A stretch of DNA of 64,000 nucleotides, from contig NZ_JADQBZ010000002.1 in assembly GCF_016278365.1 (NCBI RefSeq), positions 179,507 to 243,506 on the forward strand, given 5' to 3'. Made by a program: the position numbers and the translations under genes. This DNA is from Methanolobus sp. (lineage in GTDB: Archaea > Halobacteriota > Methanosarcinia > Methanosarcinales > Methanosarcinaceae). The notes beneath the pieces are model-generated. The model was not told where the DNA came from and did no database searches. It worked only from the letters and a program-made list of their open reading frames with translations. This document shows positions 6,791 through 18,206 of this stretch, piece by piece. How positions within the stretch are numbered: the first letter of the stretch is position 1; each line of letters starts with the position of its first letter.

Positions 6791-6997
6791 TTACACTAGC
6801 CTCTTCAGCTTTAATTTCTCAATCACACGCTCTGCAGTCTCTTCCACCTGCTTCTCCCTGAGACTATTCTGCGTTTTCGAGTAATGCTCCGCAATGAAGT
6901 CCACCGCCTGGCTCTTATTACAGTCCTGCTCTTTCATCACCCGATGAAGTACTGCGGTCGTATTCTTGCTCACGGTTGCATAGAGTTTGGGTCTCAT
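6791..6997 (-). CDS. Small ribbon-helix-helix-like phage protein
   Basis: 68 residues. The N-terminal half (KLYATVSKNTTAVLHRVM, then NKSQAVDFIAEHY) looks like a beta-helix-helix (Arc/CopG-type) DNA-binding unit; the C-terminal half is a charged helix that may form a coiled coil. It starts 3 nt after the large terminase gene and is the last gene of the leftward prophage operon. A portal gene would be expected next but is absent. A truncated paralogue lies at 5405-5500. Confidence 0.65.
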   Translation of the reverse strand: MRPKLYATVSKNTTAVLHRVMKEQDCNKSQAVDFIAEHYSKTQNSLREKQVEETAERVIEKLKLKRLV

Positions 6998-7000
6998 AGA

Positions 7001-8255
7001 TTACCTCGGTCTTGTTTTGATAAGTGCTGACATGTTCAGTTTCTGCGGCCCATATCTCGATTTGCTGAGCTCCGACAGGGCCCACACGAGAGCATCCACA
7101 CGGTCCGGGCTACTGCCTTCGCCCGGGACCCAGTCACACATCTGGTCCTCCAGGGCCGGGAAGGATCCTACGTGATGCACCTTGCCTTGCTCATACAGAG
7201 CACTGATAGGCTCGGCTCTGGTCTGCTTTCCCCGGCTGGCTCTGACCGAACGATAGGATACATTCGGGTCAATAGTCCGAAGCGTATACTCCACGAGCTC
7301 GCCCCCGTTGTTCACTTCGCCGATGACCCTGTCTGCAGAATGCTTGTAGTAGGCTGCAATGATCTCCTGAGCCCACTTCTTCGGTGTTGCATGGATGGTA
7401 TAGTCTCCCAGGACATAGTACTCTCCGCGTTCATCCACAGCTGCAACAACTATGCCGGTATCAGCTGAAGTTTCGTTGGATGTAACCGCCGGGTCCACGC
7501 CAACCACGATACGCAGAAGGTTAGGAACTTTGGACACCCTGGCATCTTCTATCATCCCCCGGGTCCAGAGTGCATCCGGGTTGTCGTCCAGGATCTCTGC
7601 GTTGAGCTCCTGCCTGCCCAGCCGAGTCCCTTCGTATCTGCTGATGATCACATCGATGAAGGCAGGTGCCAGGTTGGACAGGTTCTCGTAGGTGGACCCT
7701 CTTGTCACGTGGGTATTGGAATCGTTCAAGAGGGCTTTGACTAGCGGAATGGGGCGAGGTGTTGTGGTGATGGCTGCCCTTGGATCATCTCCCAGCCGGA
7801 GGCCAAACTGCAGCATGTCCCAAGTCCTGTCAGGATACTTCCAGGCCGCAATCTCGTCACACCAGGCAGTGTCATGCTGGGGTCCTCTCAGTCTATCCGG
7901 TTCCTCTGCAGAAAACAGCAAAGCCATCGCACCGTTGGGCCAGGTGAGCCTGCGTTTGGATGGCTCGTATAGGCCGATTCCATGGCGGGCAGACCGACAA
8001 TATGCCAGACTCTCCTTCAACCATAGTGTCCCTGGCATCCGCTGCAGTTGGAGCCACTAAGGCTATCCTGCGGGCCTTGCCGGATTCTACTCTGTCACGG
8101 ACCCATTCAGCCCCTACCATGGACTTCCCCCAGCCTCTCCCAGCACAAACCAGCCAGTACCGCCAGCTTCCTTCCGGAGCGAGCTGATTGGGTCGAGCCC
8201 AGAATCTCCAGTCATATTCCAGCTTCGAGAGCTCATCATCGCTGATATCACTCAT
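7001..8255 (-). pseudogene. Phage terminase large subunit, frameshifted
   Basis: The DNA-packaging ATPase-nuclease. The first frame (8255 leftward) holds LEYDWRFWARPNQLAPEGSW, the Walker A CAGRGWGKS and the segment VAPTAADARDTMVEGESGI. The second frame (7001-8038) holds LYEPSKRRLTWPNG, FSAEEPDRLRGPQH, the Walker B-like WCDEIAAWKY, and the RNaseH-like nuclease with GVDPAV and PDRVDALVWAL. The frames join near 7971-7976, where one surplus base in GGCC turns the expected W-N-R-L-Y-E-P into a shift; dropping it gives a 417-residue protein. Either a broken gene, a +1 programmed shift or a read error. It overlaps the small-subunit gene. Confidence 0.85.
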
Positions 8256-8682
8256 GATCTTCTGGCGCTCTGAGCCTGGAAGCAATGCTATTGATTCTGC
8301 TAACGATCCTCTCTCTTGTTTCATCTGTATTGATCTCGACGTTGTTCTGGGTCATATTGATCTCAACTTCACGCCTGCCAAACTCAGCAGGACATGTGCG
8401 CTCAAGCCACCACGCTGCAGCCTGCCATGAATGACCTGCTGCCTTCTGGATGATGGCCACATTCCTGGCAATGGCCTCTGCCTTGGCCTGCTTAACCTTG
8501 AGATAGAAGTCATGGTACTGCCCGGATGTTGCTCGTTCGCCACGCTTCATCCAGTCGTAGTAGGTGACAGAAGCGACCCCAATTGCATCACATGCATGGA
8601 TCACAGGGACACCGGACTTGAGCAGCTTGATTAGTGGCTCGGATACTTCGGCCATTATTGTGCTGCCTTTCTTTCTCCCCAT
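8248..8682 (-). CDS. Phage terminase small subunit-like protein
   Basis: 144 residues with an N-terminal helix-turn-helix of terminase small-subunit type (IHACDAIGVASVTYYDWMKRG, about 28-48), then a helical part with AGHSWQAAAWWLERTCPAEFGRR, common in phage small terminases. It would recognise phage DNA and start packaging with the large subunit. It lies between the ParB-methylase gene (28-nt overlap) and the large terminase gene (8-nt overlap). A start at 8655 (TAATG overlap) is also possible. Confidence 0.8.
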   Translation of the reverse strand: MGRKKGSTIMAEVSEPLIKLLKSGVPVIHACDAIGVASVTYYDWMKRGERATSGQYHDFYLKVKQAKAEAIARNVAIIQKAAGHSWQAAAWWLERTCPAEFGRREVEINMTQNNVEINTDETRERIVSRINSIASRLRAPEDHE

Positions 8683-9899
8683 ATGTAGTCATCACCATTT
8701 CGTTTCAGTTCACAGTTGCCTGTCAGATTGACATATCGTTGAACAATTACATCGGCGTACCGAGGGTCAAGTTCGCATGTGTAACAGACACGATTGAGTT
8801 GATGTGACGCAATTAGTGTCGTGCCTGAGCCGCCGAACAGGTCAATAACCAAATCCCCACGATTACTAGAATTTTCTATTGCTCTTGCAACAAGTTCTAC
8901 TGGTTTCATTGTCGGGTGTTCATCACTTCGTTTTGGCCGGGGTATCGCCCACAGGTCAGACTGTTTTCTATCTTCCACAGGGCATGCTCGAGGAGCATCA
9001 CCTTTCCAACCGTACCATATAGGCTCGTACTGTGTGTGATAATCTTTTCTGCTTACAACCAGACTGTCCTTTGCCCAGATTATAGTCGATGACCAGTGGA
9101 ATCCGCTTTCTTCTAGTTGAGACATTATCAGCCCCCATTCCTGAGCAGACATTGCCATGTACAATATTCCACCATGGATCAACCTGCGGTATATCTGGTC
9201 ACAAAATCTCTCTGCGAATTCACCGAACTTGTCACCAAGATTGTCGTTCAGGATGGTCCGCTTCTTCCATCCAAGAGCATTATTACCACCCCTGAAACCT
9301 TCGCCATATGATACATTCCATGGTGGATCCGTCCAGCATATGTTTGCCAGTCTCCCGTTCATCAATTTGTCAACATCTGCCTGCAATGTAGAATCACCAC
9401 AGAGCAATCGATGGTTGCCAAGCTCCCAGATATCACCGAGAACTGTCACCGCCTCCTCTGGCACCTCCGGTGGTTCATCTTCCACCACCTCTACTGGTGT
9501 TATCGACTCAAGTAAATCGTCCACTGCATCCAGGGTGTAACCAATCGCCTCAAAGTCGAAGTCCGGGATCTCTGCTATTTCCTGCAGCAGCTTTGCCAGC
9601 TTTTCTGTATCTGTCTCGGCCAGTTCGGCCAGCCTGTTATCGGCAATCACGTAGGCCACGGCTTTCTCGTATGGAAGGTCGAGGCTTATTACGGGAACCT
9701 CGGTAAATCCCAGCTCAAGGGCAGCCTGGAGCCTTGCGTGGCCTGCTACGACCATCTTGTCGGCTGTGATGAGGATGGGGTTTGTCCACCCAAACTCCCG
9801 CATCGACTTCTTCAGCATGCTCAACTGACTTTCCGGGTGCCTTTTAGGGTTATCGATGAATGGTTTCAAATCGCCTATCGGCATAGTAATGACTTGCAT
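8655..9899 (-). CDS. ParB-like nuclease domain fused to DNA methyltransferase
   Basis: 414 residues. Residues 1-100 form a ParB/Srx-like domain (IGDLKPFIDNPKRHPESQL, VVAGHARLQAALELG). From about 165 follows a beta-class N4/N6 DNA methylase, with catalytic motif TDPPWNVSYGEG and SAM motif DLFGGSGTTLIAS near the C-terminus. Such fusions are common in prophages and probably modify phage DNA against host restriction. The start ATG at 9899 has AAAAAAGGTAC upstream. No restriction endonuclease is nearby, so it is probably an orphan methylase. Confidence 0.9.
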   Translation of the reverse strand: MQVITMPIGDLKPFIDNPKRHPESQLSMLKKSMREFGWTNPILITADKMVVAGHARLQAALELGFTEVPVISLDLPYEKAVAYVIADNRLAELAETDTEKLAKLLQEIAEIPDFDFEAIGYTLDAVDDLLESITPVEVVEDEPPEVPEEAVTVLGDIWELGNHRLLCGDSTLQADVDKLMNGRLANICWTDPPWNVSYGEGFRGGNNALGWKKRTILNDNLGDKFGEFAERFCDQIYRRLIHGGILYMAMSAQEWGLIMSQLEESGFHWSSTIIWAKDSLVVSRKDYHTQYEPIWYGWKGDAPRACPVEDRKQSDLWAIPRPKRSDEHPTMKPVELVARAIENSSNRGDLVIDLFGGSGTTLIASHQLNRVCYTCELDPRYADVIVQRYVNLTGNCELKRNGDDYIWGERKAAQ

Positions 9900-14603: not shown

Positions 14604-14864
14604 TCACTGAACACCTCTCTTCAGGATCTCATCGATCGCAAGCATTACTTCCTCCACTCCTCTGGAAACATCTGCATGTATCAGTTCCCGGATCTCATCG
14701 CCGCTCTCCAGTTTCCGAGAGATTGTGACCTGTGCATTTGGCTTGATGTTGCCTTTTGAATCGATCTCTGCACCGATCTTTGTTGAGATCTCGTATCCCT
14801 GGGTGTAGACGATGCGGGTTTCAGAACTCATTTTTGATGCTGGATCTGACAAGGTATCGCTCAT
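14604..14864 (-). CDS. Small prophage protein of unknown function
   Basis: 86 residues starting MSDTLSDPA, preceded by AGGAGG and overlapping the stop of the upstream gene (TGATG). A longer in-frame reading from 14921 would run deep into the upstream gene and is rejected. The central part (IVYTQGYEISTKIGAEID, then ISRKLESGDEIRELI) looks like a beta-sheet DUF found in phage operons next to recombination ATPases. No firm family. Confidence 0.65.
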   Translation of the reverse strand: MSDTLSDPASKMSSETRIVYTQGYEISTKIGAEIDSKGNIKPNAQVTISRKLESGDEIRELIHADVSRGVEEVMLAIDEILKRGVQ

Positions 14865-15163
14865 CAGGTATTCCTCCTGAAATCCTTCACAACAATAGGC
14901 ACCATCCCAGCCTGAGACCATCCTATCCGGGTCACGTTATTGCATGATGCAAGCTCCGCTGTTGCGACCATATTCACAAATCGGGATGCTCTGCCGGTTA
15001 TGACCGCAAAGACCTCGTTCTCTCCGGAAACCTTGCTACGGACCCATTGCTGGATCCTGGTCACATCCGCAGCACCGATGTGTTTCAGAGGATCGTCCTT
15101 CGTGTAACCTATGCCAGTTGGCAATCGGTCGAAATCGATGTATACTTCAACTTCTTCTGTCAT
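14864..15163 (-). CDS. Small prophage protein, weakly Csx3-like
   Basis: 99 residues starting at MTEEVEVYIDFDRLP (AAAGGAAG upstream); the longer reading from 15415 would cross the zinc-ribbon gene at 15291-15437 and is rejected. The C-terminal half (VFAVITGRASRFVNMVATAE, then VTRIGWSQAGMVPIVVKDF) has the shape of the Rossmann-like core of Csx3-type proteins (V-V-I-S-G-R-x-P-x-W-L), but the family's His and DPRL residues are not present. The resemblance is by eye only. It is coupled to the next gene by a TGATG overlap. Confidence 0.6.
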   Translation of the reverse strand: MTEEVEVYIDFDRLPTGIGYTKDDPLKHIGAADVTRIQQWVRSKVSGENEVFAVITGRASRFVNMVATAELASCNNVTRIGWSQAGMVPIVVKDFRRNT

Positions 15164-15224
15164 TTCGTACACTTCCTTTCGGTTGTATCTCAAAAGCCTG
15201 CAATCTCTATGTTCTGCAGGCCGA

Positions 15225-15272
15225 TGCTCCGGCCGGGGCTCGAACCCGGGAGTGACCCAGAAGTCCCGGAGT
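15225..15272 (-). ncRNA. tRNA-like fold lacking a D-arm
   Basis: On the minus strand, ACTCCGG can pair with CCGGAGC (6 of 7 bp), giving an acceptor stem followed by the discriminator-like A. Directly before the 3' side lies a perfect T-arm: CCGGG, loop TTCGAGC, CCCGG, including the GTTCGAGCC consensus. Only 16 nt lie between acceptor and T-arm, with a short GAC/GTC hairpin whose loop contains TCT; there is no D-arm. It sits in the gap between two prophage micro-genes and in their transcript direction. It could be a decayed tRNA, an attachment-site relic or an mRNA element. Confidence 0.55.
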
Positions 15273-15290
15273 GGGTGGAGGAGGTGACCT

Positions 15291-15437
15291 TTAAGGTCTG
15301 ACCTCCTTATCACATTCCGGGCAGTAGATGGGTCGGTTCTTACACTGCCAGTCGATCTCAAAAATATGGCCGCATTGGTCGCATATGCACTCGGCCACGA
15401 TCCTTGTGCGTGCAAGCGGAATGCTGTTGATGGTCAT
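15291..15437 (-). CDS. Zinc-ribbon micro-protein
   Basis: 48 residues from ATG 15437 to TAA 15291. Zinc-binding pattern: ECICDQCGHIFEIDWQC followed by YCPECDKE. The ATG overlaps the stop of the upstream gene by 4 nt (ATGA), supporting a real, coupled gene. It is one of a chain of micro-genes in the early prophage operon. Function unknown. Confidence 0.65.
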   Translation of the reverse strand: MTINSIPLARTRIVAECICDQCGHIFEIDWQCKNRPIYCPECDKEVRP

Positions 15438-17017: not shown

Positions 17018-18206
17018 CGGTTCATCCCCACACATGTGGGGAACTCGTATTTGCCGCTAATTGTGTAAGCATTAATTCCGGTTCATCCCCACGCGTATGG
17101 GGAACTCATTCTATAGTCTTTTTCCGCGTATATTTTCGCCGGTTCATCCCCACGCGTATGGGGAACTCCTCTGTCGGGTGTGTGTCAATCGCCACAAGAT
17201 CGGTTCATCCCCACGCGTATGGGGAACTCGAGATGGGTTAGGGCCGTGCCCGAAGGGCACCACGGTTCATCCCCACGCGTATGGGGAACTCTGTTTTTGG
17301 ATGAAGAGGCTATGCTTGTGATGCGGTTCATCCCCACGCGTATGGGGAACTCTGTCTATTGTATCGAATTTCATTTTTATAAGGCGGTTCATCCCCACGC
17401 GTATGGGGAACTCTAAGCTGAATTTAAATCATAGTTGTGTATTGTCGGTTCATCCCCACGCGTATGGGGAACTCTTTAAAGTCCCTGTTAGATGCAATCT
17501 GGTATCCGGTTCATCCCCACGCGTATGGGGAACTCTAGTCAAATCCAAATCAATAGACAACGCACCCCGGTTCATCCCCACGCGTATGGGGAACTCTCCA
17601 CTATGCAGCCTTTCGCCACTATATATGTCGGTTCATCCCCACGCGTATGGGGAACTCCGATGATCATACTCTTGTCGCTAAGGTGGTGGCGGTTCATCCC
17701 CACGCGTATGGGGAACTCTGTCGAGAAATGCATAAGACTGTTTGACAAACCGGTTCATCCCCACGCGTATGGGGAACTCGCCATGATTAAAACCCTCTGC
17801 TATTTTTCATACGGTTCATCCCCACGCGTATGGGGAACTCATTCCATCTCTGCCACTGTTCCCAGTATCAACCGGTTCATCCCCACGCGTATGGGGAACT
17901 CATTTGAACCAACTAGCGTAAAAGCAGCCCTGTCGGTTCATCCCCACGCGTATGGGGAACTCTGGATTCTCTCCGGGGTTGGAGTTCATGAATACGGTTC
18001 ATCCCCACGCGTATGGGGAACTCACACAAATAACCCAGAAGTAGAGGAAGGAAATCGGTTCATCCCCACGCGTATGGGGAACTCATGGGCGACCTCACAA
18101 GCCAGCAGATCACCGCCGGTTCATCCCCACGCGTATGGGGAACTCCGAGAACATCCTGATATTCATAGGCATGGATCCGGTTCATCCCCACGCGTATGGG
18201 GAACTC
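17018..18206 (-). CRISPR. Type I-E CRISPR array, 20 repeats, 19 spacers
   Basis: 29-bp repeats start every 61 bp (17018, 17079, 17140, 17201, 17263 and onward to 18178). In transcript orientation (minus strand) the repeat begins GAGTTCCCCATACGCG and ends GATGAACCG, close to the Escherichia coli type I-E repeat. Spacers are 32 nt except one of 33 nt (17230-17262), which contains a hairpin GTGCCC/GGGCAC. The repeat at 17018-17046 differs (CACATGT for CGCGTAT), as expected for the leader-distal end. The array follows cas2 on the same strand. Confidence 0.97.

Follow-up and report, generated by a model that had tools for sequence, protein, structure and literature searches.

A tRNA-like element of 48 nt was found on the minus strand of the window (the whole 64,000-nucleotide stretch of Methanolobus sp. 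DNA that was analysed). It lies in an untranslated gap inside the operon of a head-tailed provirus and is, on balance, probably a t-element-like substrate of RNase P and tRNase Z at which the polycistronic provirus transcript is cut. The element was present at the same operon position at ten loci, with its fold retained.

Structure and detection of the element

Read from 15272 to 15225, the element is ACTCCGGGACTTCTGGGTCACTCCCGGGTTCGAGCCCCGGCCGGAGCA. The 6-bp acceptor stem, perfect T-arm, 3' A and mini-hairpin that the original prediction had placed within 48 nt were all present on the minus strand (Table 1), and the predicted setting, a leftward untranslated gap in a prophage operon, was likewise confirmed. 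The prediction had called the fold D-armless, and the reduced tRNA fold stood. As the loop of the mini-hairpin keeps GG as in D loops, the hairpin is read here as a D-like arm and the missing arm is taken to be the anticodon arm, not the D arm. The element would thus consist of an acceptor stem, a D-like arm and a T-arm. A seventh possible acceptor pair, the first pair (A1·C72), is an A·C mismatch.

Table 1. Location of the tRNA-like element, its parts, the neighbouring features and the copies of a second, unrelated element
Feature	Location	Strand	Details
tRNA-like element	15225..15272	-	Sequence, covariance model, pair counts
A1 of element (5' end)	15272	-	Faces C 15226
Acceptor 5' strand	15271-15266	-	CTCCGG
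Putative D-like hairpin	15265-15254	-	GAC-TTCTGG-GTC; loop TTCTGG = 15262-15257; 3 pairs
Linker	15253-15250	-	4 bases
T-arm	15249-15233	-	CCGGG-TTCGAGC-CCCGG; perfect 5 bp, canonical T-loop
Acceptor 3' strand	15232-15227	-	CCGGAG; 6-bp stem with CTCCGG
Unpaired C	15226	-
Discriminator-like A	15225	-
48-aa zinc-ribbon ORF	15291..15437	-	Upstream of element; stop codon 18 nt before element
99-aa ORF	14864..15163	-	Downstream of element; without Pfam or PHROGs family
Shine-Dalgarno-like AAAGGA of 99-aa ORF	15174..15179	-	AAGGA kept in 10 loci
Hairpin directly 3' of element	15195..15222	-	GGCCTGCA/TGCAGGCT, 12-nt loop; 10-sequence consensus fold
Stem around 48-aa ORF stop codon	15280..15306	-	GGAGGT/ACCTCC, inner GACC/GGTC; window-leader minimum-energy fold
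CCCGGA inside 48-aa ORF	15316..15321	-	Complementary to TCCGGG, acceptor 5' side of element
Second element, two copies	L164 (G082:C2) 8261-8319 and about 6800-6867
Second element, two copies	L165 (G084:C77) 8715-8773 and about 9754-9815

ARAGORN, which had been suggested together with the prediction, called 0 genes in the window and did not recognise the element as a tRNA. The element was also not detected with Rfam at gathering thresholds, and no tRNA (RF00005) match was obtained even at permissive thresholds. The best permissive match was mascRNA-menRNA (RF01684) with 21.6 bits and an E-value of 0.037, about half the gathering score of 42.5. The element therefore falls outside RF01684 (>42.5 bits), and with 48 nt only it also falls outside RF00005, which requires a cloverleaf with an anticodon arm and a match to the tRNA model. 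It does have the acceptor stem and T-arm upstream of another RNA by which a t-element is structurally defined. The folding energy of the 48-mer alone was unremarkable (z of -1.15 and -0.46). When the 260 nt ahead of the 99-aa gene were dinucleotide-shuffled 2000 times, 0.1% of the shuffled sequences contained a 5-bp T-arm whose loop reads TTC[AG]A. The rarity of this arm in the shuffles and the retention of the fold at ten homologous loci place the element beyond chance.

Position within the provirus operon

The gap that holds the element separates the 48-aa zinc-ribbon ORF from the 99-aa ORF, and the start codon of the latter lies 61 nt past the end of the element and 109 nt past its first base in the window. 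The operon belongs to a head-tailed provirus that encodes a small terminase, a large terminase subunit interrupted so that it occupies two frames, a ParB-methyltransferase, a D5-type primase-helicase and a RecA/UvsX-like ATPase. The large subunit is split at 7001-8324 in the window; L115 and L163 have it uninterrupted and in frame throughout the stretch compared, which indicates that the provirus of the window is decaying and that its relatives look intact there. The hairpin directly 3' of the element showed one-sided changes of the G-U type only and a few broken cells in the ten-sequence consensus. The stem at the 48-aa ORF stop codon is weak and absent from the consensus fold, the alignment being gapped there.

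The 99-aa protein had no match worth naming in Pfam, PHROGs, PADLOC or PDB, and its AlphaFold model had a mean pLDDT of 47.5. A likeness to Csx3 was unsupported by searches of the same four resources and is not claimed. A coding role of the element was also considered, as a window ORF (14864-15415) spans it. The distance from the first base of the element to the start codon was 100, 104, 105 or 109 nt across loci (the start of L051 is misplaced in this count), and open frames of 97-105 aa were present at five of ten loci. Given the variable spacing, and the absence of the long frame at several loci, the element is not coding.

A CRISPR array with a spacing of 61-62 nt was observed at 17079-18200 of the window, beside a Cas2 gene and adjoining the provirus. 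The 18 spacers read had no match longer than 13 nt to the provirus of the window or its relatives.

Conservation among close relatives

Of 60 relatives searched at the DNA level, 7 had the region, and alignment placed the element identically in eight loci plus the window. Named relatives of the locus were M. halotolerans SY-01, M. profundi Mob M and a MAG, all Methanolobus. In total the element was found at ten loci, nine in Methanolobus genomes and one (L091) in another genus of the family, and at all ten it lies between the 48-aa zinc-ribbon gene and the 99-aa gene of a head-tailed provirus. Among 185 genomes of the order, a covariance model trained on nine sequences recovered ten copies at 72-82 bits, with scores of 33 bits or less elsewhere. 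The 52 model-match loci that were fetched comprised 40 ordinary tRNAs (mostly tRNA-Glu), the ten elements and two MAG loci, L108 and L110. At the level of the phylum, 392 sampled genomes contained no further copy of 72-82-bit strength, and the genome of the window held no other strong copy. Viral contigs yielded no further copies by DNA pattern or by the 99-aa protein, and phages gave 27-nt chance matches only.

RNAalifold gave the same structure unprompted, and 98.6% of base-pair cells were paired over the ten sequences. Two compensated pairs occurred in the T-stem, the acceptor stem was invariant except for one broken pair, and the other helices were nearly invariant. The covariation score was matched by 11 of 500 shuffles, the thin covariation being due to the low divergence among the loci. 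Mean column identity was 0.861 in the element, compared with 0.659 and 0.634 in the flanking stretches and 0.673 at the third codon positions of the 99-aa gene. The two G of the mini-hairpin loop were invariant, as were the unpaired A and C of the acceptor end, i.e. the A·C mismatch (10/10 loci, nine plus L091). Loss of the fold in related prophages, or its mutation without compensation, had been named beforehand as evidence against the prediction; in close relatives the fold is retained.

Distant homologues of the 99-aa gene

A profile search with the 99-aa family provided ten further distant loci for examination; L147 (E 9.6e-4) stood outside the ten, and L150 was dropped as a false match because its translation, inspected by eye, is phosphatase-like. 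At five of the ten loci the stretch directly upstream of the homologue held a tRNA, a tRNA-like element or a T-arm. At L133/L156 (G021:C51) the place of the element is taken by real genes for tRNA-Gln and tRNA-Thr, and in L156 the primase, ATPase, 87-aa and 115-aa genes follow the order of the window provirus. L129 has a quasi-tRNA at the site (27.0 bits against the Rfam cut-off of 29 bits), in L127 and L132 (both G111) a T-arm and acceptor strand are accompanied by a long insert, and L143 has 4/5 T-arm and 6/7 acceptor pairs. L128 (G009:C89), which resembled an element with a 7-bp acceptor, has no standard T-loop and lies in a short ORF read by eye, and was counted as ambiguous; L144, L145, L153 and L146 had no T-arm upstream of the homologue. 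In shuffle trials of the distant loci other than L145 and L153, a five-pair T-arm was obtained in at most 1%; for an arm of four pairs such as that of L143 the rate was 3.2%. Acceptor sequences differed among the distant loci.

With four homologues lacking a T-arm and one ambiguous, the element is not obligatory for the 99-aa gene. The real tRNA genes at the L156 site suggest that it is tRNA-likeness in itself that is retained. The viral tRNA-Gln of L156 (9295-9366) shares the A1·C72 mismatch with the tRNA-like element. By eye, a large hairpin whose loop is rich in C and A was seen beside the tRNA or tRNA-like element in L127, L128, L133 and L143.

Proposed cleavage of the provirus transcript

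Cleavage of the element RNA and an effect on expression are proposed here by analogy. Host RNase P would cut before about 15272 and host tRNase Z after 15225. The upstream product would be an mRNA that ends past the zinc-ribbon ORF. The downstream mRNA would have its 5' end two bases ahead of the predicted hairpin at 15195..15222, thus starting with this hairpin, and would encode the 99-aa protein and the replication genes.

The available portions of PMC7479834 report that RNase Z of Methanolobus psychrophilus processed pre-tRNAs lacking the D or anticodon arm in vitro, that the acceptor stem was required and that activity was reduced with 5' extensions of at least 10 nt; its authors proposed a broad substrate spectrum. 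Because such extensions inhibit the enzyme, RNase P should act first. According to the sections available of PMC4326828, t-elements are described as RNase P and tRNase Z substrates, and the one that precedes 5S rRNA in Haloferax serves as a substrate of tRNase Z; in Haloferax, t-elements flanking a designed RNA release that RNA in vivo (same source and PMC4946936, in excerpt). For mascRNA, the elbow of two D-loop guanines and the T-loop is given in the accessible part of PMC11693755 as crucial for recognition by RNase P and RNase Z, the recognised part being a minimal acceptor and T-arm with a D-like elbow. On these three precedents the element is proposed as a cut mark. A tRNA mimic for processing or stability, among the roles originally suggested, is therefore the likeliest reading, given the compensated fold, the tRNA genes of L156 and the arm tolerance of RNase Z (PMC7479834, as far as available).

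Alternative readings

The leader might instead stay uncut and act in cis, with a tRNA-binding protein (a host enzyme or the viral 99-aa protein) binding the element and thereby controlling downstream translation or stability; this is considered rather unlikely. tRNA mimicry controls known autoregulated leaders, and the 61 nt between the element and the start codon, which contain a hairpin and a conserved Shine-Dalgarno-like site, would suit such a leader, as would the possible pairing of the acceptor 5' side with the invariant CCCGGA of the preceding ORF, which fits a switch. However, ordinary tRNA genes are found at the same place in L156, and the acceptors of the distant loci differ, hence no specific tRNA identity is kept.

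It is doubtful that the excised small RNA is itself the product, i.e. a viral decoy or stable RNA like mascRNA that would, for example, occupy host tRNA-binding or tRNA-cutting factors. The permissive Rfam match to mascRNA-menRNA, below the gathering score, and the closeness of several members to tRNA-Glu in the acceptor and T-arm are in its favour, whereas distant loci with unrelated acceptors or full tRNAs are better suited by a generic processing signal. The exchange of element and tRNA at one site fits a cut mark better than a specific decoy.

A regulated form of the cut mark can also be envisaged. In the full window leader, a competing fold in which CCGG of the upstream ORF pairs into the element was 1.5 kcal/mol more stable than the fold with the element, and the CCCGGA of the 48-aa ORF was present at all ten loci with its codons invariant. 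This alternative pairing of CCCGGA with TCCGGG may be a switch or a coincidence. As a switch, CCCGGA in the tail of the upstream ORF would pair with the acceptor TCCGGG and hide the acceptor strand; only ribosomes translating the upstream ORF would free that strand, the tRNA mimic would then fold, and RNase P and tRNase Z would release the downstream replication mRNA. That translation of the upstream ORF governs folding and cutting of the element in this way is quite improbable; if true, the virus would have reduced an ordinary tRNA gene to a cut mark that is both minimal and regulated.

Little probability is likewise given to a decaying viral tRNA gene with no present function. Real tRNA genes at the site in L156, the quasi-tRNA of L129 just under the cut-off and the broken state of the window provirus, with its split terminase, would agree with decay. 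Against it stand the compensated changes and the conservation of the element above flanks and third codon positions, over ten loci.

Comparison with host tRNAs

Archaeal elements often integrate at tRNA 3' ends, and an attachment-site relic had been raised as one origin of the fold. The host genome gave 41 tRNA-model matches, of which 40 were compared, all recognised by ARAGORN; a 28.6-bit match below the cut-off was left out. The position-wise comparison took 27 of the 40, the T-loop of the other 13 not fitting the search expression, and local alignment covered all 40. None of the 40 host tRNAs shared the 3' end of the element, an outcome that had been named in advance as speaking against the original prediction. 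Within the host genome, the 21-nt T-arm and acceptor 3' stretch matched only the element itself at up to 3 mismatches. Lacking identity to a host tRNA 3' end, the element does not qualify as an attachment site, and since it also keeps the same operon-internal position at 10/10 loci, an attachment-site relic is very improbable despite the general frequency of integration at tRNA 3' ends in archaea.

The closest host tRNAs to the window element were tRNA-Glu and tRNA-Gly, each with 20/25 nt of the T-arm and acceptor. The L057 element shared 23/25 nt of the T-arm and acceptor 3' side with tRNA-Glu. The element differs from Methanolobus tRNA-Glu in its length of 48 nt, the A1·C72 mismatch and the missing anticodon arm, and tRNA-Gly is equally close to the window copy, which leaves descent from tRNA-Glu unproven.

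Comparison with known systems and further tRNA-like elements

In mitochondrial transcripts, tRNA structures punctuate genes as cut marks, and armless mitochondrial tRNAs exist. The proposed cut mark resembles these in its place between genes and its reduced form; it differs in having no anticodon, whereas mitochondrial tRNAs are functional in decoding. With the t-elements of Haloferax volcanii it shares being an archaeal tRNA-like element upstream of another RNA, e.g. 5S rRNA (PMC4326828, in the part available), but it lies in the mRNA gap of a methanogen provirus, is followed by a hairpin and a coding gene, and its cleavage is proposed by analogy. The likeness to the 5S t-element is one of description; one of four genomes searched for a 5S rRNA had one, and none was found in G383, G000 or G137. 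mascRNA/menRNA (RF01684) is similar in its acceptor, T-arm and reduced D-like arm with two guanines, and in recognition by RNase P and RNase Z (available text of PMC11693755), but has an extra arm at the anticodon position and originates from human lncRNA, and the element reaches half its gathering score.

A second, unrelated tRNA-like element was observed in another family of the order, with two copies in each of two genomes (Table 1). It lies upstream of paralogous genes for repeat-rich secreted proteins (ORFs read in L108) and is followed by a hairpin. Its acceptor is ATACGCC/GGCGTAT, in one copy ATGCGCC/GGTGCAT, and a TATA-like stretch was seen about 25 nt before one copy. A pattern search of 185 genomes returned no further real copies of this second element, only two matches with 3 mismatches that lacked the fold. 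In the 392-genome phylum sample, a 36.9-bit match (L113, G383:C2:302915-302969) was observed in a distant GC-rich genome. It has the same topology, with a 7-bp acceptor (GCTCCCG/CGGGAGC), a D-like hairpin with GG and a T-arm, and ends a few bases ahead of an ATG.

Significance of the element

Searches of the open-licence literature returned no account of an element of this kind in a provirus of a methanogen. In the literature consulted, archaeal tRNA-like cut marks are known from the 5S rRNA of Haloferax; the present element is a conserved one without an anticodon in a viral mRNA. The element is a candidate in vivo non-tRNA substrate of Methanolobus RNase Z. Together with the tRNA genes of a sister virus, the element loci offer a natural series from a tRNA to a minimal substrate, and they suggest that methanogen viruses may divide their transcripts by means of the tRNA-processing enzymes of the host.
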